Shown here one piece after another: positions 3,864 through 64,000 of a DNA stretch of 64,000 nt. The stretch's first letter is position 1; the number at the start of each line of letters is the position of its first letter. A program made the translations under genes and the position numbers. The DNA is taken from positions 248,001-312,000 of the forward strand of contig NZ_FOOF01000003.1 in assembly GCF_900113115.1 (NCBI RefSeq), written 5' to 3'. Under the pieces are notes generated by a model. That model did no database searches, was not told where the DNA came from, and saw only the letters and a list, made by a program, of their open reading frames with translations. The DNA is from Duganella sp. CF458 (GTDB taxonomy: Bacteria > Pseudomonadota > Gammaproteobacteria > Burkholderiales > Burkholderiaceae_D).

Positions 3864-5263
3864 CGCAGCAGTTCCACGTCGGTCGCCAGCGCCGCCAGCT
3901 CCTTGGCGCTCAGGATGCCGGCGAACTCGCCCGGCACTTCCGTGGCCGTGGCCTGCGCCGTCAGGAAAAAGCGCGCCACGGCCAACACCGTGCCATCCAC
4001 ATTGGCGCCGGCCGCGACCGGGCATGCCAGCAGGGGAACATACAGCAGGCGCCGGTCCTTGCGGCCCGGGTAGCCCGTGGGCGCGGTCTTGAAGCCGGTG
4101 TTGTTGTAGGCGCCCGACGCCGGCCAGTTGGTGCCCGTACTGCTGAAGGCCGGTGCGGCGGGATACAGGCTGGTCCAATGGCTGAACAGGAAGGCACTGT
4201 TGTTGCTCCGCCTGGCAGGCCCGTAAGCCCACAGCGTGCCGTACTGCGCCGCGGCGACGGCCGGCAGCGGATAGGCGCCGTCGGCGACTGTCATCAGGGG
4301 CTTGCCGGCGGCCGGCGTGCCGGCGGCCGCCGCGGCCTGCGGCGGGTAGCTGTTCATCCAGCTGGCCAGGGTGCCGCGGTACTCGCGCACGTTGCTGTCC
4401 GGCGGCGCCGTGTAGGGATCGCAGGCATCGCTGCCGTTGTATATGCCGAAGCGCGAGTTGAGCTGCTGCCACAGGCCGAAGCCTGCGTTGCGGCGCAAAT
4501 GCAGGGCGCCGGCCAGCGAAGGGTAGGCCAGTTTGCCGACGCACATGAACGGCGCCACCTGGCTGTCGGCGCTGCTGGCCGGCACCGCGGCGCTGCCGGG
4601 CGGGCTGGCCGGATCGATCAGGAAGTACTCGCCGCTGCCGGCACCGGGCGCCGGATTCAGTGCCAGCAGGTTGTAGGTGAGGCCAAAGCGCAAGCCGTAA
4701 TCGATGCGCTCGTCCAGGCCGGCGCCGTTGAAGCGGGTGGCGGTGGCAACGCTGCTCGGTGCGCAGATCGCCAGCGGCAGCACGCGCAAGCCGTTCGGGC
4801 CGGCCACGGCGCGGGCGCCGACCATGGTGGCGGCCGCGCCGCCCAGCAGGCGGCCGAACGCCACCGGCAGGACAGTGAAGGCGTCGCCCTGCCCGGCCAT
4901 GTCGGCGCGCGCATACCGCAGCCCGCCAGGGGCTCCCTGCGCTGCGCTGAAGTCCAGCCAGGGGCCGGCCGGATCGGCGGCAAACGACAGCACCGCGGGA
5001 TTCAGCACGACGCGGTCGACGCCGCGCACGCGGCGGTTCAGCACTGCGGCACTGGCGGCCACCACCGCGCCCGAAACGCCGCTGGCCGTGCCATCGAGTT
5101 GCTGGGCCGCGCTCAGCGCCACCGCGTCGGCGACCTGCTGCAACTGGCCCTGGCGCTGGAACGCCATCGACAGCTCCAGCGCCAGCCCGCACACGCCGAT
5201 CGCCAGCGGCAGCACGAAAGCCGTCAGCATCAGGATCGCGCCGCGCTCGCGCTGCCGCTTCAT
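3860..5263 (-). CDS. tadG: TadG-like pilus assembly protein
   Basis: A 467-residue protein whose N-terminus (RGAILMLTAFVLPLAIGVCG) is the TadG-like membrane helix, followed by a long extracytoplasmic region. TadG-type proteins are thought to bridge the inner membrane and the outer-membrane secretin in the Tad apparatus. Start and stop both overlap neighbours by the ATGA pattern (5260-5263 and 3860-3863). No clear von Willebrand A metal site was seen in the extracytoplasmic part, unlike in many TadG proteins, so it may be a VWA-less variant. Confidence 0.87.
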   Translation of the reverse strand: MKRQRERGAILMLTAFVLPLAIGVCGLALELSMAFQRQGQLQQVADAVALSAAQQLDGTASGVSGAVVAASAAVLNRRVRGVDRVVLNPAVLSFAADPAGPWLDFSAAQGAPGGLRYARADMAGQGDAFTVLPVAFGRLLGGAAATMVGARAVAGPNGLRVLPLAICAPSSVATATRFNGAGLDERIDYGLRFGLTYNLLALNPAPGAGSGEYFLIDPASPPGSAAVPASSADSQVAPFMCVGKLAYPSLAGALHLRRNAGFGLWQQLNSRFGIYNGSDACDPYTAPPDSNVREYRGTLASWMNSYPPQAAAAAGTPAAGKPLMTVADGAYPLPAVAAAQYGTLWAYGPARRSNNSAFLFSHWTSLYPAAPAFSSTGTNWPASGAYNNTGFKTAPTGYPGRKDRRLLYVPLLACPVAAGANVDGTVLAVARFFLTAQATATEVPGEFAGILSAKELAALATDVELLR

Positions 5264-6627
5264 TTGCGTTCTCCCAGGTCCGCTGCCGGATCGCTGAAGG
5301 ATTTTCGGTAGCGCGCCTGGGCCGCCGCCGCCGCCGCGCCATCCAGCCCGGCACCGTCGCCTTCCGGCTTGACCAGGTGGGCGGTGATCACGAACAGCAG
5401 TTCGCTGCGATCGTTCTGGAAGTCGGTGCTGCGGAACAGCGCGCCCAGCACCGGTATTTCGCTGAGAAACGGCACACCCTTGATGTTGTTGACCTGCGTG
5501 TGCCGGATCAGGCCACCGATGGCAAAGCTCTGGCCGTCCTGCAGCTGCACCGTGGTGCTGGCGCGGCGCGTGGTGATCAGGGGGAAGATGGCGCGCCCGC
5601 TGATGCTGCCGTTGCTCACGCCGATGCCGTCGCGCGACAACTCCGATACTTCCGGCGCCACTTTCAGGTTGATGCGCCCGCCCGCCAGCACGGTGGGCGT
5701 GAATTTCAGGCCGACGCCGAATTCCTTCTCCTCCAGCGTGATGCGGTTGTTCTCCTGCGCCACCGGCACCATCACCTTGCCGCCGGCGAGGAAGTTGCCT
5801 TCCTGCCCGCTCAGCGCCATCACGGTCGGCTCGGCCAGGATGCGCACCTGGCCGTCCTGCCGCTCCGCATCGAGCCGCACGCTGCTGCCGTTCGATTTCG
5901 TCAACCGCAGGCCGCTGCCCAGCGTGCCGCTCAGGAAGTCAGCCAGCACCATGGCGCTCCAGCTGCCGCTGGCGTGGCGCAGCGACAGGCCCGCTTCCAG
6001 CTTGTCGAGCAGGGTCTTGGACACTTCGGCCACCTTCACCTCCAATTTGACCTGCTGCGGCGCGCTGACCGCCAGCAGGTTGACCAGCCGCGGGCCCGGC
6101 GCCGACGGCTGCGCCGGCGCGCCTTCCTTGCGCGCCAGCGGCTGCGGCGCCTGGCGCACGAAGGCTTGCGCCAGGTCCAGCACTTGCGCCAGTGTGGCGC
6201 CATCGCTCACGCTGCCGCTCAGGGCGATGGCATCGGCAGCGGCACTGACCTTGATGCCGCGCTCCTGCGGCAGCAGTTCCGCCAGGCTGGCGCGCAGCGG
6301 CGAGACGTCGAGCGCCACCGCGACTTCCACGACGCTGCAGGCGCCCGACTTGACTTGCACGATCAGGTTGGTGCTGCCGATCTCGGCACCGACCAGGTAA
6401 AGCGTATCGGACGCCACCAGGGTGGCCTGCAGCACGTGGGGGTTGCCGATGCTGCGCCCGCTCACGGTGTCGGACAGGCGCATCAAGGTGGACTTGCCCA
6501 GTTCCAGCGCCAGCTTGCCGGGAACGGCGGGCGCTCCGGCGCAACGCAGGCTGTCGCTATGCGCCGGGGCGGCCGGGAGGAGCAACAGGGCCAGCGCGGC
6601 CGGCAGGCAGGTAGGTGCGAATCGCAT
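5260..6627 (-). CDS. cpaC: CpaC/RcpA family Flp pilus outer-membrane secretin
   Basis: A 455-residue secretin forming the outer-membrane channel of the Flp pilus. A Sec signal peptide covers about residues 1-24 (ending APAHS). A pilus-secretin N-domain (about 35-110), a BON-like segment (about 110-160) and the secretin core (about 190-420) follow, including the conserved RAIFPLITTRRASTTVQLQD and QSFAIGGLIR blocks. The ATG at 6627 has AGGAGCC just upstream. It is 9 bases after cpaB and overlaps tadG by 4 bases. The fit to the CpaC/RcpA subgroup is supported by the Tad gene context. Confidence 0.95.
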   Translation of the reverse strand: MRFAPTCLPAALALLLLPAAPAHSDSLRCAGAPAVPGKLALELGKSTLMRLSDTVSGRSIGNPHVLQATLVASDTLYLVGAEIGSTNLIVQVKSGACSVVEVAVALDVSPLRASLAELLPQERGIKVSAAADAIALSGSVSDGATLAQVLDLAQAFVRQAPQPLARKEGAPAQPSAPGPRLVNLLAVSAPQQVKLEVKVAEVSKTLLDKLEAGLSLRHASGSWSAMVLADFLSGTLGSGLRLTKSNGSSVRLDAERQDGQVRILAEPTVMALSGQEGNFLAGGKVMVPVAQENNRITLEEKEFGVGLKFTPTVLAGGRINLKVAPEVSELSRDGIGVSNGSISGRAIFPLITTRRASTTVQLQDGQSFAIGGLIRHTQVNNIKGVPFLSEIPVLGALFRSTDFQNDRSELLFVITAHLVKPEGDGAGLDGAAAAAAQARYRKSFSDPAADLGERK

Positions 6628-47010: not shown

Positions 47011-48564
47011 TCAGGGGCGGCGCGTGCCGGCCAGGGACTGGTCCAGCGGCGCGAGGTTGCGATCCAGGAAGGCACGCATGGCGGCGCGCGCCACCGCCGG
47101 GTCTTCATCGTAGGGGGCGAATACCATCACGGCGGCGCCGTCGCCGTTGCCGGACAGCAGTTTGCCCTTGACCTGCAACAGTTTGCCGACGTAATGGCTG
47201 CTGGTCATGCTGCCGTTGACCCAGTACCACTGCCACACCAGCAAGCGCCGGCCTTCCAAGCCGAGCATGGCTTCGCGCACGGCCATGTGGCGGCCGCCGA
47301 AGCTTTCGTCGCGCAGGTCGGCGCTGTTTTCGCGGTACGCGGCCTTTTGCTGGCCGATGCGGTTGGTCGAGCTGACCAGCTTGGCGCTGCCGGGCGCATC
47401 GCGGTAAAACAGCACGGTCAGGCCGACCGGCGGCGCGCCGGCAAAGGACTGGCGCAGCGTACCGCTGGCCGCTGCGTAGTCGGGCTGCCAGGCGGTGAAC
47501 TCCGGTGCGGCCGGCGTCGGTGAAACCAGGGCCAGCTTGACGGCCGGGGCGGCGGTCGCGGCCTGGTCGGCGCGCGCGGCCAAGGCCGGCCAGACCACCA
47601 GCACGGCCAGCACGGCCACGCCGCCGCCGATCAGCGGGCGCAGCGGCAGCGGCAGCAGCGCCTGGCTGGTCAGCGGGGCTGCGGCGGCCGCCGGGCCGTC
47701 TTCGCGCCAGAAGCTGCCGACCCAGAACAGCAGCAGCATCACCAGACCGAAGAATACCCAGCCGTAAATCAGGTGGTCGACGCCGACCGCCAGCGTCATG
47801 CCGCTCAAGTGGCCCATCATCACGATCATATACGCGCGCACCCCGTTGGCTGCCACCGGCACCAGGATCGAGGCCAGGATGAAGGCGGCGCGGCGCCAGG
47901 CGGTGCGGTAGCTCAGGTAGGCGAACAGGCAGCCGAGGGTGATCGACGAAATCAGGTAGCGCAGGCCGCTGCAGGCATCGACCACCGACCAATTGCCGCT
48001 GGGGATGGAAAAATTGTTGCCATCGCGTAGCACCGGAATCCCGGTCAGGCGCAGCGCATCGACCGTGAAGTCGGCGGTCAGGTCGATCAGCGGCGGCACC
48101 AGGCTCTCGCCCACCGGCACCGCAAACAGGATGAAGGCCAGCGGGAACAGCAGTGCGCCGGCGATCCGCCTGCCCAGCACCGCCAGCACGGTCAGCGGCA
48201 GCATGGCTGCCAGCGCGTACTGGCGCACGATGCTGACTTCCGCCAGGTCGGCCAGCAGCCAGGCCGCGCCGAAGGCTGCCAGCAGCAGCAAGGCCGGCCA
48301 GCACGGCTGCAGCGGCAACTGCTGCAGCGCCCAACGCTGGCGCCATACCAGCCACAGGCTGATGGGCAGGATCAGGAAGCCGTGCGCAAAGGTCTCCGAG
48401 CGCTCCCAGATGTGGGCCACGCTCAACGCCGTCTCATGGAACACCAGCAGCGGCAGCAGCATGACCAGCGCCACCAGCAGCGCATTGCGCGCGCCGGCCA
48501 GGGGCCCATGCGATGCGGCCGCGCCGGGTGCGGCGGCCGGTCCGGTGGAAGGTAAGGTATTCAT
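47011..48564 (-). CDS. xrtA: Exosortase A fused to an EpsI-type domain
   Basis: A 517-residue transpeptidase-like membrane protease that sorts proteins with a C-terminal PEP-CTERM signal. The exosortase part has about eight helices, with catalytic Cys197 in VVDACSGLRYL, Arg242 in ANGVRAYMIV and His263 in VDHLIYGW. From about residue 310 to the end a soluble EpsI-type domain follows. EpsI is often a separate gene; here it is fused. The ATG at 48564 gives a 25-residue Ala-rich leader. It overlaps the Stp1-like gene by 4 bases. No PEP-CTERM substrate is in this window. Confidence 0.96.
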   Translation of the reverse strand: MNTLPSTGPAAAPGAAASHGPLAGARNALLVALVMLLPLLVFHETALSVAHIWERSETFAHGFLILPISLWLVWRQRWALQQLPLQPCWPALLLLAAFGAAWLLADLAEVSIVRQYALAAMLPLTVLAVLGRRIAGALLFPLAFILFAVPVGESLVPPLIDLTADFTVDALRLTGIPVLRDGNNFSIPSGNWSVVDACSGLRYLISSITLGCLFAYLSYRTAWRRAAFILASILVPVAANGVRAYMIVMMGHLSGMTLAVGVDHLIYGWVFFGLVMLLLFWVGSFWREDGPAAAAAPLTSQALLPLPLRPLIGGGVAVLAVLVVWPALAARADQAATAAPAVKLALVSPTPAAPEFTAWQPDYAAASGTLRQSFAGAPPVGLTVLFYRDAPGSAKLVSSTNRIGQQKAAYRENSADLRDESFGGRHMAVREAMLGLEGRRLLVWQWYWVNGSMTSSHYVGKLLQVKGKLLSGNGDGAAVMVFAPYDEDPAVARAAMRAFLDRNLAPLDQSLAGTRRP

Positions 48565-54036: not shown

Positions 54037-55593
54037 TTAGAATCTGGTTGTCAGAGTCGCGGACACGGCGTTTTCCGTGTAGTTCTGGCCGCCCAGCCCG
54101 AGCGAACCGCGCACGTGGCGCAATTCCACGGTAGCGCTGGTGCGCTTGGTATACGTCCGCGCCAGGTTGAGCCGCAGGTCGCGATGCCTGGTGCTGCGCG
54201 CATCGCTCAACGATTTGACGTTCATCGCATTGCCGATCAGGGTTGCCACGGTTTGCGCCCCGGGCCGGTAGCTGATGCTGGCCATGGCGCCCAGCTGCTC
54301 GGTATTGTCGTTCAGGGTCGCCAGGGAACTGCCCAGCAGCACACTGTCGACCTGCTGGCTCGACAGCATCTGGCGTTTGTTCTGGAACACGCTGACCGTG
54401 GTGGTGGTGCGCGCCAGCTGCCAGGCCATGCCCGCGTTTAACTGCTTGTTCAGCGAATAGCGGTTGCTCAGGAAGTTGACGCTGGTGGCCAGCGAGGGCG
54501 GCAAACCTGCCGACTGGATATAGGCTTGCACCGCGGCAGCGCGCAGCAGCGCGTCCGGAATCTGGGCGCGGAACAGGTTGTCCAGCATGGCGGCCGTATC
54601 GATCGCCTGCGGCAGCACGAACTGGCTGCGCGTCGAGTTGACGGAATCGGTGTAATTGATGTTCCACACCGTGCCGCGGCTGCGGTGCTGCAGCGCCAGG
54701 CTGTAGCTGGGGCCATAGAAGCGGTGGCCGGCGGTGGCCTGCACCGAGGTGCGGGCCGATGGCGTCCACTGCAGCGAGCCGCCGTAGGCCGCGCCCGATT
54801 GCGCCCCGCCCACGCCGCTGAAATCATAGCTGTCGTAGCCGCCGTACAGGCCGAGGTTGAGCTGTGGCGTGGCTGCATAGCGCAGGTTGAGGTTGGCCGC
54901 CTTGGAACTGGTGCTTTGCTGGCGCTCGCCGCCGCCGATGACCGGCAACTGCTCGTCGATCACCGAGCGCGACGCCATGGCATCCCAGCCAAAGCGGCGG
55001 AAGGTCGGTCCGCTGGCCAGCAGCGCGCTGATGGTATTGCCATCGCTGCGGCGCATGCCGGCGTTGTCGGTGCTGACCGAGTCGTGCGAATAGCGCAGCT
55101 GGCCATTGGCAAACGCGCCGAAGCGGTGCACCAGGTAAGGGCTGATGCGGTAGGTGCGCACCTCGGTGCGGTTGGTGCTCACGTAGTCGTTGCCGGCCTG
55201 CAGCGGTCCGAAGGCCGACGTGGCTTGCTGGTGGATGCCGGTCTGGGCATCGAGGAACAGCAGGTCGTCGACCAGGCGCGACTTGAGCAGGCCGTTCAAG
55301 TTCTGGTTGTGGCGCTGGGCCCCATTGCGCCGCGCGCCGGCATACTCGTACACGCTCAGCGAATAATCGAAGCTGAGGTCAAACCGCTGCGAATGGTTGA
55401 GCAACTGGAAGCCCGGCGTGAGTTGCAGGACCCACCCGCTTTCGGCCCGGTCGCCGGCTTGCAGGCCGACATTATCGGAATACGTGGCGCGCGCGGCGGC
55501 GGTCGGCGTGAAATCCCACGCGGCGTGCGCCGGAAAGGCCGCCGCCAAGCCTGCTGCCAGCGGCAGCAGGGCCAGGCGGCTGCGCTTAGCCAT
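54037..55593 (-). CDS. PEP-CTERM system-associated outer-membrane beta-barrel protein
   Basis: A 518-residue protein with a signal peptide (about 1-25, ending AHAAW) and many amphipathic beta strands ending in TTRF, as in the exosortase-locus outer-membrane family. It is presumably the channel for the exopolysaccharide or an associated porin. Starts at 55593 (MAKRSR) and 55605 (MTITMAKR) are both possible; neither has a good ribosome site, and both overlap the upstream kinase gene. I chose the one that gives a normal signal peptide. Confidence 0.88.
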   Translation of the reverse strand: MAKRSRLALLPLAAGLAAAFPAHAAWDFTPTAAARATYSDNVGLQAGDRAESGWVLQLTPGFQLLNHSQRFDLSFDYSLSVYEYAGARRNGAQRHNQNLNGLLKSRLVDDLLFLDAQTGIHQQATSAFGPLQAGNDYVSTNRTEVRTYRISPYLVHRFGAFANGQLRYSHDSVSTDNAGMRRSDGNTISALLASGPTFRRFGWDAMASRSVIDEQLPVIGGGERQQSTSSKAANLNLRYAATPQLNLGLYGGYDSYDFSGVGGAQSGAAYGGSLQWTPSARTSVQATAGHRFYGPSYSLALQHRSRGTVWNINYTDSVNSTRSQFVLPQAIDTAAMLDNLFRAQIPDALLRAAAVQAYIQSAGLPPSLATSVNFLSNRYSLNKQLNAGMAWQLARTTTTVSVFQNKRQMLSSQQVDSVLLGSSLATLNDNTEQLGAMASISYRPGAQTVATLIGNAMNVKSLSDARSTRHRDLRLNLARTYTKRTSATVELRHVRGSLGLGGQNYTENAVSATLTTRF

Positions 55594-56545
55594 AGTGATA
55601 GTCATAGGTCTCGGTACCCGGGAATTCACGCGACTTGTTGTAGATCAGGTTGACGTTGCTCAAGCCTTCCAGCTGGCGCAGCGATTCCTTGACCGCGTGC
55701 TGGGTGGTGCGCTCCGATTCCACCACCATCACGATCTGGCCCATATTCGAGGCCAGCACATGCGATTCTGACGTCAGCAGCAGCGGCGGCGAATCGAAGA
55801 TCACGATACGGTCCGGGTAGCGGTTCGCGATCTCATTGACCAGGTTTTTCATCATGTGCGAGGCCAGCAGCTCGGTGGCACGCGGCGAGCTGGTGCCGGC
55901 TGGCAGGATCGACAGGGTATTGACATTGGTGCGCAGCATCACGTCGGCCATGTCGACACTGTCGTCCAGCAAGATGTCCATCAGGCCGCGCTGGGCCGGC
56001 AAGCCCAGCGTGCGCAGCACCGACGGCCGCGCCACGTCGGCGTCGACCAGCAACACGGTGTGGTCCAGTTCCATGGCAATGCTCATCGCCAGGTTGATGG
56101 CGCAGAAGGTCTTGCCTTCGCCGGGCAGCGAACTGGTGATCATGATCAGGTTGCCCGGGTTGTCGCCCTGCTTGCGGGCGGCAAAGGCGCGCTTGATCAG
56201 CGGGCGCTTGATGATGCGGAAATCCTCCACCAGCGCGGTGCGGCCGCCGGCGGCAGTGACCAGGCCGGACTCGTGCATGCGCATCAGGTCCAGTTCCACG
56301 GTATGGGTGGTACGGCGGCTGGCATCGCCGTGCGGCTGCAGGGTGGCCAGCGTCGGCATCACGGGCGCCGCGGCCGCGGCGGGGGTAGCAGCTTGGGCAG
56401 CAGCGGGCGCCGCGGCAGCCGGGGCCGCGTGGGCTGCTTCCGCTACCGGAGCCGCGGCCGGTGCCGGAGGGATGGTGGCTTCGGCTGCGGCGTCGGCAGG
56501 ACGCGCTTGCCCGAGGCGGTTGGCGGCTTTTTCGATAATGCTCAC
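55586..56545 (-). CDS. XrtA-associated tyrosine autokinase (CpsD/EpsG-like)
   Basis: A 319-residue bacterial tyrosine kinase. An Ala/Pro-rich linker (about 18-63) precedes the BY-kinase domain with Walker A SSLPGEGKT at 138-146, Walker A' LLVDADVARP near 170, and Walker B VIFDSPP. The last six residues, YDYHYG, contain three Tyr, in the position of the autophosphorylated cluster. The kinase is separate from the chain-length protein, 27 bases downstream of it. It controls polymer length and export. Confidence 0.95.
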   Translation of the reverse strand: MSIIEKAANRLGQARPADAAAEATIPPAPAAAPVAEAAHAAPAAAAPAAAQAATPAAAAAPVMPTLATLQPHGDASRRTTHTVELDLMRMHESGLVTAAGGRTALVEDFRIIKRPLIKRAFAARKQGDNPGNLIMITSSLPGEGKTFCAINLAMSIAMELDHTVLLVDADVARPSVLRTLGLPAQRGLMDILLDDSVDMADVMLRTNVNTLSILPAGTSSPRATELLASHMMKNLVNEIANRYPDRIVIFDSPPLLLTSESHVLASNMGQIVMVVESERTTQHAVKESLRQLEGLSNVNLIYNKSREFPGTETYDYHYG

Positions 56546-56572
56546 TTGAAGACTCCCTGGGTGTTGCGCAGC

Positions 56573-58099
56573 TCAGGCGGCGCGCAGCAAGGTAACGGTA
56601 ATGACACCGCCAAATGCGGTCAGCAGCGAGGCCACGGCCAAGCCGAAGGCATACAGCCGGCGCCGGCGCGAAGAGCGCTGCTGCTCGGTCCAGTTCATGC
56701 CGATGGTGCCGAGAATCGGCACCCCGGTGACTTCACGCAAGCTGTGCTGGCTGAGGAAGGTCGGACGCACCTGGCTCATCAGGAACGCACCGCCCAGGCC
56801 GGCCAGCAGGGCAGCCACGAACACGATCGAGTAAAAGCGTGCGCGGTTCGGGCCGGTCGGGGTTTGCGGCACGATCGGCGGGTCGATCACGCGGAAGCTC
56901 ATCATGTCGGTCGCCGAGCTCAGATCGCCGGACAGCTTGGCCGCTTCGCGGCGCTGCACCAGCTTTTCATAGTTTTCCTTGTTGATCGAGTAGTCGCGGT
57001 TGAGCTGTGCCAGCTGCGCCTCGACTTCCGGCGCCGCCGTGCTCTGCGAGCGCATGCGGTCCATGCGCGCCGAATACTCGCCGACGCGGGCCTTGAGCGA
57101 TGCCACGCGCGCTTCTTCCACCGACAGCGCGACGTTCATCTGCTGCAGCATCGGGCTGTAGCCGGCGCCCGGATCGCCGCTCTTGGCCGCCTTCTTCGCC
57201 TCGTCCTTCTTGCGTTGCTGCAGGTTGGCAATCAGGCGCTTGGACGACACGATGTCCGGATGCTCTTCGGTGTACTGCATGCGCAGGCTGTCAAGCTGCT
57301 TCTCCAGCGTCGAGATGCGGCCATCGATTTCCGGATTGGCGATGTTGGTGGCGTCGGCTGCCGGCGCCATGTCTTCCCCGGCGATCTGGCGCTTGATGGC
57401 ATTGCGCGCCTGTTCGGCTTCCAGCAATTCCAGGCGCGCCTGGTTCAGCTTTTCCGACAGGTCGCCCAGGTTGCTCGAGTAATCGGTGCCCTGGCGCGGC
57501 AGCAAGCCCATATGGCGGATCTTGAATTCCTTCAGCGCATTTTCGCCGGCGGCCAGGCGCTCCTCGTACATCTTGATCTGGTCGTCGATGAACTGCACGG
57601 CCTTTTCCGAATCCTGCTTCTTGCCGCCGAAGGAGCCTTCCACAAAGATGGTCAGCAGCGACTGCACCACGTCCTTGCCCAGCTTGGGATTCTCATTGTT
57701 GTAGGAGATGGTGTAGATGTCGTCGCGTTCGGTACCGATCACCTTGATCGCGCCCATCAGCTCATCGACCTGACGCTCGTGTTCCTTGCCATCCTTGGCC
57801 TTGATGTCCAGGTCCACCATGCGCAGCACGCGCTCCACATTGGGGCGGCTGATCAGGGTGCGGCGCATGAACATCACTTGCTGCTCGACGTTGGGGGTGG
57901 TGGTCATGCCCGACATCAGCGGCTTCAGGATACTCTGGGTATCGACATACACCCGGGCCGACGCCTGGTAATCGTTGGGCAGGCGGTACACCACCGCCCA
58001 GCCGATCACTGCCACCAGCCAAGCGATTGCCACGGCATACCAGCGGTATTTCCCGATTGCTTTAAGAAAGGTCAACAGCAATGCCAAAATCTCTGCCAT
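56573..58099 (-). CDS. XrtA-associated polysaccharide chain-length determinant (Wzz-like)
   Basis: A 508-residue inner-membrane protein. The N-terminal helix is about 19-41, a Wzz domain and a coiled-coil region (about 175-400) lie in the periplasm, and a C-terminal helix pair (about 420-450, and near 485-505) completes the topology. There is no fused kinase; it works with the autokinase gene downstream. The ATG at 58099 was chosen; a GTG at 58108 in frame would add three residues. It is the first gene of the minus-strand operon. Confidence 0.93.
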   Translation of the reverse strand: MAEILALLLTFLKAIGKYRWYAVAIAWLVAVIGWAVVYRLPNDYQASARVYVDTQSILKPLMSGMTTTPNVEQQVMFMRRTLISRPNVERVLRMVDLDIKAKDGKEHERQVDELMGAIKVIGTERDDIYTISYNNENPKLGKDVVQSLLTIFVEGSFGGKKQDSEKAVQFIDDQIKMYEERLAAGENALKEFKIRHMGLLPRQGTDYSSNLGDLSEKLNQARLELLEAEQARNAIKRQIAGEDMAPAADATNIANPEIDGRISTLEKQLDSLRMQYTEEHPDIVSSKRLIANLQQRKKDEAKKAAKSGDPGAGYSPMLQQMNVALSVEEARVASLKARVGEYSARMDRMRSQSTAAPEVEAQLAQLNRDYSINKENYEKLVQRREAAKLSGDLSSATDMMSFRVIDPPIVPQTPTGPNRARFYSIVFVAALLAGLGGAFLMSQVRPTFLSQHSLREVTGVPILGTIGMNWTEQQRSSRRRRLYAFGLAVASLLTAFGGVITVTLLRAA

Positions 58100-58289
58100 C
58101 TCGATCACTCATCCCTGGTTAGGCAGGCAAACTGTCGCAATGCCCACATCTAATATTGCCTAAATAACATCTAATCTCTATCATACAGCAGAACGCGCTG
58201 GCTGTTACTATTAATTTATGTCTGTTGCGCACTGCTGACGAAAAGAATTTAACATTTCCCTATAGCAATTCACCACTTTTGGAGGCGGC

Positions 58290-59063
58290 ATGCTCAAGCT
58301 GATTTCACTATTCCTGGCCGCCTGCCTGGCCTGCGCCAGCCCGCTGGCCGGGGCCGCGCCGCTGCCGCGCACGATTGCCGCCGTCAAACCCAGCGTGGTC
58401 GGCATCGGCACCTTCAACCGCACGCGCAGTCCCGCCATCGTATTCCATGCCACCGGCTTTGTGGTGGGTGACGGATTATCGGTCATCACCAATGCGCACG
58501 CGGTGACGGCACTCGATTCGGAAAAACTGGAAACCCTGGGCGTGGTGACCGGCAAGGGCGACCAGCTGCAGTTTCGCGAAGCCAGCGTGGTGACCATCGA
58601 CCGCGCGCACGACCTGGTGCACCTGCGCCTGAAGGGCGCGCCCTTGCCGGCCCTGGCCCTGGGCAGCAGCGAGATGCTGGACGAAGGCAGCGACCTGGTG
58701 TTTACCGGCTACCCGCTGGGCATCCTGCTGGGCCTGAACCCGGTCACCCACCGCGCCTTGCTGGCGGCGCAAACGCCCGCCATCCTGCCGACCCCGAGTT
58801 CGCGCGGCCTCAATCCGCGCGCCGTGCTGCAGCTCCAGCGTGGCGCGCCGTTCACGATTTACCAGCTCGACGGTACAGCCTACCCCAGCAATAGCGGCAG
58901 CCCCGTGTATGATCCGGAAACCGGCGCCGTGGTGGCCGTGATTAATATGACCCTGGTCAAGGGCATGAAGGAAAGCGCGATCACCGCCCCGAGCGGCATC
59001 AGCTACGCCATCCCGGTGCGCCACGTGCATGAACTGCTGCAACAGGGCGGGGCACAAAAATAG
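58290..59063 (+). CDS. Secreted trypsin-like serine protease in the XrtA locus
   Basis: A 257-residue S1-type protease. The signal peptide is about 1-23 (ending GAA), with the catalytic triad His70 (VITNAHAV), Asp108 (RAHDLVHLRL) and Ser202 (YPSNSGSPVYD). The serine motif is NSGSP instead of DSGGP, as in HtrA-like members, but no PDZ domain follows. A strong GGAGG precedes the ATG. It is divergent from the chain-length gene (181-base gap) and in front of the export lipoprotein gene. It may process sorted proteins or regulate the locus; this is inference. Confidence 0.92.
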   Translation: MLKLISLFLAACLACASPLAGAAPLPRTIAAVKPSVVGIGTFNRTRSPAIVFHATGFVVGDGLSVITNAHAVTALDSEKLETLGVVTGKGDQLQFREASVVTIDRAHDLVHLRLKGAPLPALALGSSEMLDEGSDLVFTGYPLGILLGLNPVTHRALLAAQTPAILPTPSSRGLNPRAVLQLQRGAPFTIYQLDGTAYPSNSGSPVYDPETGAVVAVINMTLVKGMKESAITAPSGISYAIPVRHVHELLQQGGAQK

Positions 59064-59127
59064 CAAGGTAAAATAGCAAGACTCGTGATATAACAGGCAA
59101 TGCCAAAAAGCAAACAAGGAGAATAAT

Positions 59128-59757
59128 GTGAATATGCAAACCAAGCTGGCCCGCGTGCTGGCCGCGAGTGCCGTCGTGTTCGGCGCACTGGGCCTGGGCG
59201 GCTGCTCCACGCCCCATGGCGGAGCCCCGTCGGACGCCGGCGCCGTGCCGCAAACCGACTACCTGATCGGCCCGGGCGACAACCTGAGCATCATCGTCTG
59301 GCGCAATCCGGAAGTGTCGCAGGTGGTGCCGGTGCGCCCGGACGGCAAGATCACCACGCCGCTGGTGGAAGACTTGCCGGCCAGCGGCAAGACCTCGACC
59401 GAGCTGGCGCGCGATATCGAAAAAGCGCTGGCCAAGTTCATCCAGCAACCGGTGGTCACGGTCATCGTCACCGGCTTCGTCGGCACGTATGGCGAGCAGA
59501 TCCGCGTGATCGGCCAGGCCGCCAAGCCGCAATCGCTGCCTTACCGGCGCGATATGTCGATCCTGGACGTGATGATTGCCGTGGGCGGGGTCACGGAGTT
59601 TGCCGCCGGCAACAAGGCCAGCATCATCCGCCAGGTCGACGGCAAGCAGCAGCAATTCACCGTGCGCTTGAACGACTTGATCAAGGATGGCGATATTTCG
59701 GCCAATGTGCCGATGCGCCCCGGCGATATTCTGGTAATTCCGGAGAGCTTCTTCTAG
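59128..59757 (+). CDS. XrtA-associated exopolysaccharide export lipoprotein (Wza-like)
   Basis: A 209-residue lipoprotein with lipobox LGLGGC (Cys26 lipidated), then a PES/Wza polysaccharide export domain (YLIGPGDNLSIIVWRNPEVS) and a SLBB-like part (YGEQIRVIGQAAKPQSLPY). It forms the outer-membrane export channel for the exopolysaccharide. The GTG at 59128 has AAGGAG at good spacing; an ATG at 59134 is an alternative. Length suits the short exosortase-locus export proteins. Confidence 0.95.
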   Translation: MNMQTKLARVLAASAVVFGALGLGGCSTPHGGAPSDAGAVPQTDYLIGPGDNLSIIVWRNPEVSQVVPVRPDGKITTPLVEDLPASGKTSTELARDIEKALAKFIQQPVVTVIVTGFVGTYGEQIRVIGQAAKPQSLPYRRDMSILDVMIAVGGVTEFAAGNKASIIRQVDGKQQQFTVRLNDLIKDGDISANVPMRPGDILVIPESFF

Positions 59758-59829
59758 ACTGGAAGTACCAATTCGATAGTTTCCTGTAGGTGTCGAAAAT
59801 TCTTACAGTTCAAGATAAGATAGGCGGTT

Positions 59830-59849
59830 GGGGGGCGTGAGCGCCCCCC
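59830..59849. terminator. GC-rich hairpin after the export gene
   Basis: GGGGGGCG (59830-59837) and CGCCCCCC (59842-59849) form a perfect 8-bp stem with a TGAG loop. It lacks a clear T-run after it, so termination is likely but weak. The rest of the 220-base gap holds a second, imperfect hairpin at 59937-59953. Confidence 0.55.
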
Positions 59850-59936
59850 TTGGTCTAGCTAAGCACCTGATTTTCCAGCAATTCCATAGGTGAAACTCGT
59901 ATCTGGAACGGTACTTGCTTCTTCACTAAGTATCAC

Positions 59937-59953
59937 GGGCGGCAACGCTGCCC
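59937..59953 (+). promoter_or_regulatory. Leader hairpin upstream of the secreted-protein gene
   Basis: GGGCGGC (59937-59943) and GCTGCCC (59947-59953) pair with one G-U wobble around AAC, ending 24 bases before the GTG start. Could affect translation or act as a weak terminator; not resolvable by eye. Confidence 0.3.
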
Positions 59954-59977
59954 TTCTTAATTCGCAAGGACGACGAC

Positions 59978-60631
59978 GTGGCCATTGAACAACAGCCAGG
60001 CAAGCAACTGAGCGCACAAGGCGCTGCGCGCCGCCGCTTCACACGCGCCGGTGCCGCCGCATCCGGCGTGCTCCTGACCCTGCACAGCCAACCTGGCATG
60101 GCTGCGGTGGTGTGCGCCGGCCCTTCGGGTTTCCAGTCCGGCCTGGTCAGCGCTCGCCCCAACGATCCGGGCGCCTGCGCCGGCAAATCGCCAGGCGCAT
60201 GGAAGAATACCGATCCGGCGCCGGACAGCAGCAGCACCGGCAAGGGCGGCAAAGGAGGCGGCAAGGGCGGTGGCAAGAATCCGACCCCGTCGCCGCTGCC
60301 GGACAAGGTGTGGCCGGCCGGCGCCTTGCCGACCGATAAGTTCCGTAGCGTATTCACCTGCACGCTGGAGATGAACAACAGCTACGGTTCGGACAATTGC
60401 ACCCTGGACTACATCCTGGGCAACGAACCGACCTTCGACAAATACAAGCTGGGCGCCCACCTGGTGGCGGCTTACCTGAACGTGCTGGCCGGCCTGTCCA
60501 GTTTCCAGACCGTGCCGATGCTGCAAAACATCTGGAACGAGCTGCGCGACACCGGCCACTTCACCCCGACTGCCGGCGTGCAGTGGGATGCCAAGCAAGT
60601 GGTCGACTACCTGTCCGGTACCATGGGTTGA
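59978..60631 (+). CDS. Secreted Cys- and Gly/Lys-rich protein of the HPr-rel-A cassette
   Basis: A 217-residue protein starting at GTG with AAGGA 7 bases upstream. A twin-arginine-like RRRFTRA (18-24) precedes a short hydrophobic stretch (about 25-37), suggesting Tat export. Residues 46-77 have two Cys and SPGAWKN, then a GKGGKGGGKGGGK insert (88-100), then VWPAG and a conserved-looking C-domain (about 118-217) with FTCTLEMNN and DNCTLDYILGNE. The four cysteines (46, 67, 128, 141) suggest disulphides. Its stop overlaps the PqqD-like gene by one base. Likely the cargo of the cassette; function unknown. Confidence 0.75.
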   Translation: MAIEQQPGKQLSAQGAARRRFTRAGAAASGVLLTLHSQPGMAAVVCAGPSGFQSGLVSARPNDPGACAGKSPGAWKNTDPAPDSSSTGKGGKGGGKGGGKNPTPSPLPDKVWPAGALPTDKFRSVFTCTLEMNNSYGSDNCTLDYILGNEPTFDKYKLGAHLVAAYLNVLAGLSSFQTVPMLQNIWNELRDTGHFTPTAGVQWDAKQVVDYLSGTMG

Positions 60632-60864
60632 TGCCGCAGCAGTGGCAACTGGTGGCAGGCCAGTCTCTGCTGCATCGCAGCTGGGACGGCCAGGTCGTGC
60701 TGTACAACGAAGTGTCCGGCGCCACCCACCTGCTGGACCAGGCTACCCTCGATTTGCTGCACGCCTTGCGCGCGGGCGACCTCGCGCCCGAAGACTGGGC
60801 CGACGCTGAGCTCCAGCTGGCCTTGGCCGGCTTGCGCAAACTCTACCTGGTGGAACCATGCTGA
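60631..60864 (+). CDS. PqqD-like peptide chaperone (HPr-rel-A system)
   Basis: A 77-residue PqqD-family protein of the HPr-rel-A type. PqqD proteins bind precursor peptides and present them to modifying enzymes. The blocks LYNEVSGATHLLDQ and a helical C-terminus fit. The ATG at 60631 overlaps the preceding TGA (TGATG), and the kinase ATG lies 7 bases before its stop. Its presence implies that a peptide or protein substrate is bound and modified. Confidence 0.87.
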   Translation: MPQQWQLVAGQSLLHRSWDGQVVLYNEVSGATHLLDQATLDLLHALRAGDLAPEDWADAELQLALAGLRKLYLVEPC

Positions 60865-61772
60865 CCGTGGCATCGTTGGCGCCGGGAGCGCTGCAGGCGC
60901 GCCTGGCGGGTGACGGCCTGCGCCTGCGCACCGGCCGCTTTGCGGTGCGGCTGCAGGCCGACATGCCGAGCGTGGCGGCCGGCATCGGCCAGTTGTACGG
61001 CGACTACCCCTTGCTGCAGGACAGCGATTTCGCCGATTTCCACCTGCAGTTGCGGCGCCCCCGTTCGGCGCGCCGCTGGCTGCGCCCGCAAGTGCGGCTG
61101 CATTGCGACGGCTACGAGATGTTCCAGCCGATGCCGCTGCAGCATGCCTTCCCCATGTTCGAATGGGGCTTGAACTGGTGCGTGTCGAGCCGCGCCCACC
61201 GCTACCTGATCGTGCACGCCGCCGTGCTGGAACGCCAGGGCCGCGCCGTCATCCTGCCGGCCCCGCCAGGCTCGGGCAAGAGCACGCTGACGGCCGCCCT
61301 GTGCGGCAAGGGTGGCTGGCGCCTGCTGTCCGACGAGCTGACCCTGCTCGAACTCGATACCGGCCTGGTGGTGCCCAACCCGCGCCCGGTCAGCCTGAAG
61401 AATGCCTCCATCGACATCATCCGCGCCTACCTGCCCGATGCCGTGCTGAGCACGCCCGTGCACGACACCAGCAAGGGCACCGTGGCCCATATGCGCGCGC
61501 CGGGCGATGCCGTGGCGCGCGCCGCCGACTGCGCCCGGCCGGCCTGGATCGTATTCCCGCACTACAGCGCCGGCGCCGCCACCACGCTGGAACCGCTTGC
61601 GCGCGCCGCCACTTTCATGGAACTGGCCGGCAACAGCTTCAACTACAGCGTGCTGGGGGCGGCCGGCTTCCACGCCCTGGGCCGCCTGATCGAGCAGGCG
61701 GCCGGCTTCCGCTTCCGCTATAGTGCGCTGGATGAAGCCCTGGACACCTTTGCCCGACTGCATGAAAGCTGA
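60858..61772 (+). CDS. HprK-related kinase A
   Basis: A 304-residue protein with the HPr kinase/phosphorylase-like P-loop fold. Walker A APPGSGKS is at 135-142, His120 (IVHAAVLER) and SDE (158-160) are in the catalytic neighbourhood. The usual HprK N-terminal domain and the phosphocarrier HPr are not encoded nearby. HprK-related kinase A proteins occur in cassettes with a PqqD-like protein and a nucleotidyltransferase; the substrate is not known. It overlaps both neighbours, by 7 and 11 bases. Confidence 0.9.
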   Translation: MLTVASLAPGALQARLAGDGLRLRTGRFAVRLQADMPSVAAGIGQLYGDYPLLQDSDFADFHLQLRRPRSARRWLRPQVRLHCDGYEMFQPMPLQHAFPMFEWGLNWCVSSRAHRYLIVHAAVLERQGRAVILPAPPGSGKSTLTAALCGKGGWRLLSDELTLLELDTGLVVPNPRPVSLKNASIDIIRAYLPDAVLSTPVHDTSKGTVAHMRAPGDAVARAADCARPAWIVFPHYSAGAATTLEPLARAATFMELAGNSFNYSVLGAAGFHALGRLIEQAAGFRFRYSALDEALDTFARLHES

Positions 61773-62874
61773 GCTGCCGCTCCTGCTGCGCGCCCTGCGC
61801 GCGCCGCAGCAGCTGGCCGCCCTGCCGCCCGCGGACTGGGACCTGCTGCTGCGCCAGGCCGCCAATGCCAACCTCAGCGCCACCCTGCACGACTGGCTGG
61901 CGCAGCACGGCGTGCTGGCGCAGGCCCTGCCCCAGGCGCGCGAGCAATTGTCCTGGGCCGCCGTGATGGCGCGCCGCCACCGCCAGGCCACCTACTGGGA
62001 AATCCGCCTGATCGGCAAGGCGCTGGCCGGGCTCGGCGTGCCGCTGCTGCTGTTGAAAGGCGGGGCCTATGCCGCCGCCGGCTTGCCGCCCGCCGCCGGC
62101 CGCCTGTTTTCCGACATCGACATCCTGGTGCCGGAAGACAGCCTGCCGCAAGTGGAAGCGGCCCTGATGCGCCACGGCTGGGTCGGCACGCACCACGACA
62201 GCTACGACCAGCGCTATTACCGCGAATGGATGCACGAGCTGCCGCCGATGATGCATGTGCTGCGCCAGACCGCCATCGACGTGCACCACACCATCCTGCC
62301 GCGCAGCGCCGCCCAGCGCCCCGATGCGCGCCTGTTGCGTGCCGCCGCCCGGCCGCTGGCGGGCGAGGGCGAGGCCGCGGCAGCCGGGGTCGCCATCCTG
62401 GCGCCGCTGGACATGGTGCTGCACAGCGCCACCCACCTGTTTGCCGACGGCGAGTTCGACAAGGGCTTGCGCGACCTGTGGGACTTGCACTGCCTGCTCA
62501 CCCATTTCGGCCGGCATGAGCCCGGCTTCTGGGAAGCGCTGCCGGCGCGCGCGCGCCAGCACCAGTTGCAGCGCTTCATGTTCTATGGCTTGCGCTACAG
62601 CGCCATGCTGCTCGGCACCGAGGTGCCGCCGGCCACCATGGCCGCCATGGCAGCCGATGCGCCGCCGCCCCTGCTGCTGGCCGGGATGGATGCGCTGTTG
62701 ACGCGCGCGCTGCTGCCGCATCACCCCAGCTGCCGCGGCGCCGGCAGCGCCGTGGCCGACTTCCTGCTGTATGTGCGCGGCAACTGGCTGCGCATGCCGC
62801 CGCTGCGCCTGGCGCGCCACCTGTTCCATAAGGCATTTTTGACACCCAAAAACTCGCAGGGCGCGGCCGCATAA
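61762..62874 (+). CDS. Nucleotidyltransferase family protein (HPr-rel-A cassette)
   Basis: A 370-residue protein of the NTP_transf_5-like group. LLLLKGGAYAAAG and GRLFSDIDILV hold the metal-binding Asp118 and Asp120. It overlaps the kinase gene by 11 bases. Together with the kinase this suggests sequential nucleotide-dependent modification of one substrate, possibly AMPylation or nucleotide attachment. The ATG at 61762 was chosen because the preceding residues of the open frame overlap the kinase and are unlike the family. Confidence 0.87.
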   Translation: MKAELPLLLRALRAPQQLAALPPADWDLLLRQAANANLSATLHDWLAQHGVLAQALPQAREQLSWAAVMARRHRQATYWEIRLIGKALAGLGVPLLLLKGGAYAAAGLPPAAGRLFSDIDILVPEDSLPQVEAALMRHGWVGTHHDSYDQRYYREWMHELPPMMHVLRQTAIDVHHTILPRSAAQRPDARLLRAAARPLAGEGEAAAAGVAILAPLDMVLHSATHLFADGEFDKGLRDLWDLHCLLTHFGRHEPGFWEALPARARQHQLQRFMFYGLRYSAMLLGTEVPPATMAAMAADAPPPLLLAGMDALLTRALLPHHPSCRGAGSAVADFLLYVRGNWLRMPPLRLARHLFHKAFLTPKNSQGAAA

Positions 62875-62937
62875 CGGCAGCAACTGCCAGCGCCGTCCAG
62901 CTACAATTGCCGGGTACTCGCTTTGCACGGAGCAGGC

Positions 62938-63786
62938 ATGCGATTCCTTGCCATCGTGGCGGCCAGCCTGCTGGCCCACGCTGCCGGCGCGCAGAACGCC
63001 GCCACCCTGTATGACCAAGCGCAGCGCCTGGAACACGGCGAAGGCGTGGTGCGCGACCTGGACCAGGCGGCCGCGCTGTACTGCCGCGCCGCCCGGCTGG
63101 GCGCGCCCGACGCCCAGTATGCGCTGGGCTGGATGTATGCCAACGGCCGCGGCGTGGGGCATGACGATGGCGTGGCCTGGCGCCTGTTCGGGCTGGCAGC
63201 CGAGCAGGGCAACGCGGCTGGCCTGCGCATGCAGGCGCTGCTGCCTGCCGCCCCCGGCGCGGCGCTGCCGGCCTGCATGGCGCCCGACCCGGCGCTCGAA
63301 CTCGACCTCGCCTTGCCGCTGCCCGATTACAGCGCCGCCACGCCGCGATTGCGCGCCCTGGTCGACAAGCTGGCACCCGAATACCAGATCGAGCCGGCCC
63401 TGGCGCTGGCCGTCATCGCCGTCGAGTCCGGCTTCCGGCACACCGCCGTGTCGCCCAAGGATGCGCGCGGGCTGATGCAACTGATCCCCGCCACCGCGGC
63501 GCGCTTTTGCGTGCTGGACGCCTTCAATCCGGAACAGAACCTGCGCGGCGGCCTGGCTTACCTGCGCTGGCTGCTGGCGCGCTACAGCGGCGACGTCACG
63601 CTGGCCACCGCCGCCTACAATGCCGGCGAACAGGCGGTCGACCAGTACCGTGGCGTGCCGCCGTACGATGAAACGCGGGCCTACGTGCGGCGGATCGGCA
63701 AGCTGTACGGTAAAACCCTGCATCCGATTGCGGCCGCCGTGCCGCAACGCTGCGTGCGCCAGATGGCAATTCGATCACGCCGGTGA
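62938..63786 (+). CDS. Sel1-repeat and lytic transglycosylase (SLT) protein
   Basis: A 282-residue periplasmic protein. Signal peptide about 1-18 (ending AAGA), Sel1 repeats about 25-95, then an SLT domain (about 135-265) with catalytic Glu163 in IAVESGFRHTA and AYNAGEQAV. It cleaves peptidoglycan, probably to open the wall for an envelope apparatus. The ATG at 62938 follows GGAGCAG. Located 63 bases after the nucleotidyltransferase, so likely in the same transcript. Confidence 0.93.
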   Translation: MRFLAIVAASLLAHAAGAQNAATLYDQAQRLEHGEGVVRDLDQAAALYCRAARLGAPDAQYALGWMYANGRGVGHDDGVAWRLFGLAAEQGNAAGLRMQALLPAAPGAALPACMAPDPALELDLALPLPDYSAATPRLRALVDKLAPEYQIEPALALAVIAVESGFRHTAVSPKDARGLMQLIPATAARFCVLDAFNPEQNLRGGLAYLRWLLARYSGDVTLATAAYNAGEQAVDQYRGVPPYDETRAYVRRIGKLYGKTLHPIAAAVPQRCVRQMAIRSRR

Positions 63787-63798
63787 TATGCTTGCCCG

Positions 63799-64000
63799 AT
63801 GGAATGGGACGCGATCATCATCGGCACCGGCATGGGCGGCGCGCCACTCGGCTATGCGCTGGCAAAGGCCGGGCAACGCGTGCTGTTCCTGGAAAAGGGC
63901 AAGTCCCAGCTGCGGCCCGGCGCACTGACCAACAGCTACGCCGAAACCCATTTCCCGGCGCCCGCCGCGCCCGGCCCGCAGCACCGCGCCACGCTGCAGC
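63799..64000 (+). CDS. FAD-dependent oxidoreductase, GMC-like, partial (cut by right edge)
   Basis: Only 67 residues are present. WDAIIIGTGMGGAPLGYAL is a dinucleotide-binding (GxGxxG-like) Rossmann start, followed by VLFLEKGKS with the ribose-binding acidic residue. This is the opening of a GMC or related flavoprotein. It starts 12 bases after the transglycosylase stop, in the same direction, and may belong to the same cassette. Family beyond FAD binding cannot be confirmed from the piece. Confidence 0.75.
   Translation, partial: MEWDAIIIGTGMGGAPLGYALAKAGQRVLFLEKGKSQLRPGALTNSYAETHFPAPAAPGPQHRATLQ

Follow-up and report, generated by a model that had tools for sequence, protein, structure and literature searches.

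A conserved gene cassette in Duganella joins a putative Tat-exported protein to an HprK-related kinase, a PqqD-like protein and a nucleotidyltransferase

Toward the end of a 64,000-nucleotide stretch of the Duganella sp. CF458 genome (contig positions 248001-312000; hereafter the window), four overlapping genes encode, in order, a protein with a twin-arginine-type signal (the cargo), a PqqD-like protein, an HprK-related kinase and a nucleotidyltransferase (NTase). We found that these genes recur together across many genomes and that the cargo carries, beyond its signal, a Cys/Ser motif whose type changes with the clade of the kinase. We lean, at slightly better than even chances, toward a reading in which PqqD-guided Ser phosphorylation of the cargo and capping by the NTase would precede export through the twin-arginine translocation (Tat) pathway, the product serving exopolysaccharide.

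We assembled 100 loci from the best 80 of 256 contig matches and 20 relatives, near-duplicates included. Besides the kinase, present in all 100 by choice, these loci contained the NTase in 100, PqqD in 98 and the cargo in 96, in the fixed order cargo-PqqD-kinase-NTase, an association far beyond chance. A lytic transglycosylase that an initial annotation of the window had grouped with these genes was found in just 26 of the 100 loci; we therefore rejected it as a cassette member and end the unit at position 62874. In a second set of 80 more distant kinase loci, of which eight have a kinase scoring under 200 bits, the NTase was found in 75, PqqD in 64 and matches to the cargo profile in 54, and where the cargo profile failed, the gene upstream of PqqD mostly still encoded a protein with a twin-arginine signal. 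Co-conservation of the cargo with the kinase and PqqD was a check set beforehand, and the cargo passed it. A candidate cargo, identified either from a profile match or from its position together with its signal, lay upstream in 160 of the 172 loci with kinases of at least 200 bits. These sets include near-duplicates, and some loci appear in them twice (L182 and L001, for example). The sole candidate of L233 was judged spurious and removed manually; that of L229, which like that of L176 failed the signal rule, was added by hand. No universal fifth gene emerged among open reading frames (ORFs) of at least 100 amino acids within 7 kb. The largest neighbor cluster reached 35 of 123 loci; it is represented by a protein that matches NtrC, a general regulator.

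Kinases above the family cut-off occurred in 28 of the 276 genomes from the class and 51 of the 397 from the phylum, in 22 of 31 and 69 of 147 genomes of two overlapping subgroups, and in none of 14 control genomes. The closest named relatives of the window's kinase are from Oxalobacteraceae (Duganella, Pseudoduganella, Massilia), and the cassette is retained from beta/gamma to other groups of the phylum, including a Sphingomonas. Related arrangements also surround some kinases that score below the cut-off. In L194, whose kinase is far below the TIGR04352 cut-off, two cargo-profile matches of approximately 57 amino acids flank the kinase (4576-4746 and 6212-6388), the first showing a twin-arginine signal; this locus perhaps belongs to a wider superfamily of such systems. 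Short proteins with twin-arginine signals also lie directly upstream of the sub-cut-off kinases of L191 (10514-10783) and L192.

The cargo has 216 homologs at E≤1e-3, with no Pfam domain among the 120 listed, and the window's own cargo matched no Pfam or NCBIfam family. It had initially been called Cys-rich, which overstates the case: of the four Cys among its 217 residues, two are conserved (C46 and C67). In close homologs R18, R19, R20 and F21 are each conserved at 97% or above. An alignment of 95 cargos showed conservation of at least 90% at R18, R19, G25 and S37 within the signal and, beyond it, only at C46, S50, S54, C67 and W75, with no such position in the last 142 residues; C46 was present in 93 cargos and S50 and S54 in 94 each. 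The cargo family is diverse, its constant parts being the twin-arginine signal and the Cys/Ser motif. The twin-arginine-like signal that had been proposed was borne out, as an RR pair precedes a hydrophobic stretch in 155 of 158 cargos. From about 94 cassette genomes known at that point, 64 were picked by hand, and TatC was matched in every one of the 64 (63 above the cut-off). Because 11 of 14 control genomes matched it as well, this evidence is weak. Judging from its signal, the cargo is probably exported through the Tat pathway.

The predicted substrates are mostly 120-300 amino acids long, the shortest being a C-type cargo (see below) of 74 residues from L172 that ends in ACISCNASLI. A structural model of the window's cargo was confident in about the last 105 residues only, and gave no PDB match at E≤0.001; no second cargo was found in the window's genome. 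We considered the C-terminal T215 as an acceptor and rejected it, since it is invariant in close homologs but falls below 90% in the wider set. A lipoprotein reading of C46 was likewise set aside, as by eye C46 has no lipobox around it and lies at varying distances from the signal.

Two classes of motif could be distinguished. The N-type motif, that of the window, directly follows the signal, whereas the C-type motif, [ST]-C-phi-x-S-phi, usually lies near the C-terminus (e.g., SCWTSF, TCFASL, SCIVSI, and TCFLSV in the cargo of Sphingomonas parapaucimobilis NZ_CP155749). Filtering for redundancy at 50% identity left 90 of 158 cargos, 72 N-type and 18 C-type; the C set is short by three, because the typing rule placed L172, L174 and L199, which are C-type by eye, among the 72 (an earlier rule had classed L072, L079 and L092 as C-type). 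The rule C..S[FILMAV] within the last 30 residues was matched by 15 of 18 C-type cargos (mean 0.37 and maximum 3 over 2,000 shuffles) and by 4 of 72 N-type cargos, the latter near chance (shuffles mean 1.5, maximum 6). The rule C.{1,4}S[GA].{2,3}S, applied to the first 44 residues, was matched by 51 of 72 N-type cargos (mean 0.92 and maximum 4 over 500 shuffles) and by none of the 18 C-type cargos.

We then applied the preset C-type rule, unchanged, to 29 cargos from 32 newly fetched loci (L268 was dropped by hand, L270 and L271 had no candidate, and five further loci were excluded as already seen). It was matched by 23 of 29 (shuffles mean 0.49, maximum 4), and a widened pattern, set after seeing the rows, by all 29 (shuffles mean 0.075, maximum 2). 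C-x-x-S was present in every one of the 29, and the distance from the motif Ser to the end was 2 to 21 residues in 25 of them and 39 to 49 residues in the other four. Three of the 18 C-type cargos lack the Cys yet keep the Ser in a phi-x-S-phi setting, making Ser the most constant element of the motif. One locus, L238, has a tandem pair of C-type cargos ahead of a single PqqD-kinase pair.

The kinase matches TIGR04352 (HprK-related kinase A) at 398.6 bits against a cut-off of 200, and H120, K141, D159 and E160 are invariant in 38 kinase rows. Searched against the PDB, its profile matched HprK proteins best (1jb1, E 0.0021), and the upstream His, the Walker A Lys and the acidic pair align with those of HprK. 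Its AlphaFold model (predicted local distance difference test score, pLDDT, 97) has a PEPCK/HprK-like fold; PEPCK and HprK have a P-loop fold in common. The kinase differs from HprK/P in that the match is remote, PEPCK ranks first by fold and the cassette holds no HPr partner. On a kinase tree of 70 rows, 58 from the 172 loci and 12 from the 29 new ones, with cargo types labeled by hand from the motifs, cargo type changed only once (shuffles mean 23.8; none of 500 shuffles reached so low a count). Eight C-type kinases of the window's class or order (L164, L172, L174, L178, L180, L181, L183 and L186) grouped with the C-type clade, apart from the N-type kinases of their relatives, so that the split runs partly against taxonomy. 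Such co-variation is what would be expected of a kinase that recognizes the motif, though it is no proof of catalysis.

The PqqD-like protein of the window scored 34.1 bits against TIGR04353, just below the cut-off of 35, and all 33 aligned PqqD members matched this family at E≤0.01. The best, though remote, PDB matches of the PqqD profile were the lasso-peptide B1 proteins TfuB1 and TbiB1 (E 0.0075 and 0.0082). The NTase matched PF14907 at 184.9 bits against a cut-off of 31.2, and its K99-G100, D118-x-D120 and D173 were invariant in 32 of 32 rows; unlike the kinase and PqqD profiles, its profile gave no useful PDB match, and PDB searches with single-protein sequences returned nothing useful. 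The assignments first made for the kinase and NTase were upheld by scores above the family cut-offs, the PqqD-like protein falling just short of its own. No radical SAM protein was matched among ten proteins scanned at 55586-63999. To our knowledge, lasso B1 proteins need no radical SAM enzyme. The initial annotation had treated a PqqD protein without radical SAM as an oddity, but it is not odd, because lasso-peptide B1 proteins are themselves PqqD-like (PMC5067487). B1 binds the leader at nanomolar affinity (PMC5067487).

Lasso-peptide clusters offer a close parallel to the cassette. Their HprK-like kinases (PadeK, ThcoK, SyanK, PsmK) phosphorylate a conserved C-terminal Ser and carry a His-Lys-Asp-Asp motif, and PsmN, annotated as a nucleotidyltransferase, is required for placing a hexose on the phospho-Ser (PMC9266682). 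A survey of rumen lasso clusters reports that HPr kinase, PqqD and an uncharacterized nucleotidyltransferase recur (PMC7533575). The cassette shares with lasso tailoring the His-Lys-Asp kinase motif, a PqqD-like B1 and an annotated nucleotidyltransferase and, in C-type cargos, a conserved Ser near the substrate C-terminus; it differs in that its substrates are mostly proteins with twin-arginine signals rather than short peptides and in that the window's motif is N-terminal. The ten scanned proteins gave no match to a B2 leader peptidase or a lasso cyclase, the rest of the window not having been scanned for them. Because no protease or cyclase was found beside the cassette and the substrates are mostly full proteins, we regard it as a variant of known tailoring of ribosomally synthesized and post-translationally modified peptides (RiPPs), not as a lasso system. 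By this analogy, the window's kinase would phosphorylate a Ser hydroxyl.

The cassette adjoins an XrtA/PEP-CTERM exopolysaccharide cluster in the window, and the association extends to other genomes. In the class set, exosortase A was above the cut-off in 25 of 28 cassette genomes versus 29 of 248 others (Fisher p 1.7e-17), in the phylum set in 30 of 51 versus 12 of 346 (p 5.6e-22), and by genus in 22 of 25 versus 22 of 191 (p 5e-15); genomes and genera having both were counted by hand, and shared ancestry inflates these p-values. Of the 21 phylum-set cassette genomes that lack exosortase A, four have an exosortase above the cut-off of the general family. In the class to which these 21 all belong, that of genome G339, 11 of the 17 loci in the neighbor survey (class counted by hand) lie near a glycosyltransferase cluster whose representative is above the cut-off of TIGR03088, an XrtA-system family, and 10 of 17 near a cluster of asparagine-synthase-like amidotransferases that is found in 12 of 123 loci overall. 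The representative of the latter, from L161, matches TIGR03108 best, below its cut-off, and the lasso cyclase family NF033535 more weakly. These amidotransferase genes (L161, L176, L196, L198, L199, L200, L202, L204, L205, L207, L212 and L214) mostly stand directly after the NTase. The association of the cassette thus seems to be with exopolysaccharide clusters of this type and not with the sortase itself. The cargo itself has no PEP-CTERM family match and, by eye, no such end, a difference from the XrtA/PEP-CTERM system with which the cassette strongly co-occurs.

Taken together, the co-conservation of the cargo, its twin-arginine signal and its conserved candidate acceptors make modification of the cargo followed by export, as the initial annotation had proposed, the best reading of these sequences. 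The PqqD-like protein would likely present the cargo to the kinase, which would act first and phosphorylate the conserved motif Ser (S50 or S54 in the window). The NTase would then likely add a second group to the phosphate, which might be a nucleotidyl moiety or, by analogy with PsmN, a hexose. The modified cargo would next be exported, probably by Tat, and its product may work in or on exopolysaccharide. A kinase of HprK-like fold would use ATP and so act in the cytoplasm, and Tat exports folded, finished proteins; an order in which modification comes before export therefore suits Tat.

Several points weigh against this reading. The chemistry is deduced, and since the N-type and C-type motifs differ, a single chemistry for both is an assumption. 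The motifs were first picked by eye, the C-type rule alone was tested on new loci, and independence among these loci is incomplete (L265-L267 and L269 are close to loci of the earlier sets, and L250 equals L251 in sequence); the strict N-type rule was missed by 21 of 72 N-type cargos. For the kinase, the second acidic residue is Glu (E160) rather than Asp, Foldseek ranks PEPCK (E 6e-7) ahead of HprK (E 1e-3), and support for the split in the tree is just 63 by the Shimodaira-Hasegawa-like approximate likelihood ratio test (SH-aLRT). The cassette is also incomplete or rearranged in places: the NTase is missing from five of the 80 distant loci (L208, L211, L213 and two with low-scoring kinases) and on the opposite strand in L172, L174, L178, L180 and L181, and gene order is altered in L186. 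Of the 172 loci, 12 had no cargo; in six of these the upstream sequence was shorter than 1,100 bases, so that 6 of 166 with room gave none. Exosortase A was absent from 21 of the 51 phylum-set cassette genomes, all in one class. Finally, no PqqD was detected in one clade (L215-L219 and L221-L224) or on the Vibrio alfacsensis plasmid NZ_CP140104 (L282). These PqqD-less loci keep the cargo, kinase and NTase, and have a gap of approximately 190-330 nucleotides in PqqD's place.

A more specific version of modification before export would make the cassette a system of Tat-coupled protein phosphoglycosylation, in which a RiPP-style guide, a kinase and a transferase mark a Cys-flanked Ser, the resulting sugar-phosphate joins the protein to, or primes, an exosortase-A-type exopolysaccharide, and the two motif classes evolved with the two kinase clades. 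As a whole, we consider this version possible but unlikely.

Alternatively, the kinase and PqqD might provide proofreading or timing for Tat, with PqqD binding the signal region and a reversible, regulatory phosphate that holds the cargo until it has folded and is absent from the mature protein. HprK/P also removes phosphate, and the twin-arginine signal lies within the most conserved part of the cargo, as this explanation would have it; PqqD-type proteins, moreover, bind leaders (PMC5067487). However, the conserved Ser is in the exported part, in C-type cargos usually near the C-terminus and far from the signal, and the NTase, present in 100 of 100 loci and 75 of 80 distant ones, would be left unexplained. 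We judge proofreading to be improbable. We have equally little confidence in another alternative, that the cargo is not a substrate at all but a secreted binding protein, with the kinase and NTase either producing or loading a nucleotide-linked sugar or lipid destined for exopolysaccharide. Such a role would fit the glycosyltransferase and sugar-nucleotide genes near some loci as well as the cassette's co-occurrence with the exopolysaccharide system of exosortase A, but PqqD-type proteins bind peptides, the cargo motif follows the kinase phylogeny, and the HprK-like kinases of lasso clusters act on peptides (PMC9266682). Least probable, in our estimation, is phosphorylation of the Ser followed by elimination and addition of the neighboring Cys to form a lanthionine-like thioether ring in C-x-x-S: the joint conservation of Cys and Ser, complete in the 29 new C-type cargos, is as expected, but the window's cassette has no match to a lyase or cyclase family, no neighboring gene of at least 100 amino acids recurs in more than 35 of 123 loci, and the Cys, but not the Ser, is missing from three of the 18 C-type cargos.

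Our reading of the ORFs and their overlaps confirmed the positions, strand and overlaps first given for the five same-direction genes (Table 1). The cargo stop and the PqqD start overlap in TGATG (60629-60633), PqqD and kinase overlap by 7 nucleotides, and kinase and NTase by 11. By eye, we preferred the ATG at 61762 over the GTG at 61723 as the NTase start, and the ATG at 62938 as that of the transglycosylase, which leaves a gap of 63 nucleotides after the NTase. A gene for an HtrA/MarP-like protease separates the exopolysaccharide genes from the cassette, and the profile of this protease matches 34 of the 100 kinase loci.

Table 1. Features of the cassette and its surroundings, in window coordinates.
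Feature	Position	Strand	Basis
Cargo precursor, 217 amino acids, GTG start, N-type	59978..60631	+	ORF, homologs, place upstream of PqqD in other genomes
Twin-arginine-type signal of cargo, R18-R19 to A43	60029..60106	+	Conserved residues, RR pair
N-type motif C46-AGP-S50-GFQ-S54	60113..60139	+	Alignment of 95 cargos; S50 and S54 are candidate modification sites
PqqD-like protein, 77 amino acids, putative RiPP recognition element (RRE) fold	60631..60864	+	TIGR04353, profile matches to lasso B1
HprK-related kinase A, 304 amino acids: H120, GSGKST Walker A (K141), D159-E160	60858..61772	+	TIGR04352
NTP_transf_5 nucleotidyltransferase, 370 amino acids: K99-G100 ... D118-I-D120 ... D173	61762..62874	+	PF14907
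Sel1 and SLT lytic transglycosylase, neighbor outside cassette	62938..63786	+	Pfam
XrtA/PEP-CTERM system exopolysaccharide export protein (context)	59128..59757	+	TIGR03027, 242.9 bits
XrtA-associated tyrosine autokinase and chain-length determinant (context)	55586..58108	-	TIGR03018 and TIGR03007, above cut-off
Exosortase A core match (context)	47701..48477 (contig 295701-296477)	-	TIGR03109, 356.5 bits
HtrA/MarP-like secreted serine protease, between exopolysaccharide genes and cassette	58290-59063		
Start of FAD-dependent oxidoreductase, truncated at window end	63799-64000		

Among the named systems close to the cassette is HPr-rel-A (TIGR04352, TIGR04353), with which it shares the kinase family, the PqqD family (the window falling just below the cut-off) and the adjacency of the two genes; the pair is annotated as such in the Sphingomonas parapaucimobilis sequence mentioned above. 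We found no paper on this cassette in the open-access literature (searching for HPr-rel-A; for HprK, PqqD and nucleotidyltransferase; and for exosortase with PqqD or HPr kinase), in keeping with the earlier remark that the families are known by name and functionally uncharacterized. Relative to HPr-rel-A, what is new is the exported cargo, the two motif classes, their co-variation with the kinase and the link to exosortase A. A likeness to SynChlorMet systems is limited to weak matches of TIGR04249 (ScmC, kinase-like) to the kinase, at 22.8 bits versus a cut-off of 125, and of TIGR04248 (ScmD, PqqD-like) to 2 of 33 PqqD members, and the ten scanned proteins included no radical SAM match.

If our reading is correct, the logic of RiPP biosynthesis, with its guide, kinase and transferase, would be widened from small peptides to exported proteins of approximately 75 to 300 residues. 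The uncharacterized HPr-rel-A genes would gain a substrate, candidate acceptor residues and an exopolysaccharide setting. The cassette would also help to show the role of the "uncharacterized nucleotidyltransferases" of PF14907, and would bear on what PsmN transfers (PMC9266682).

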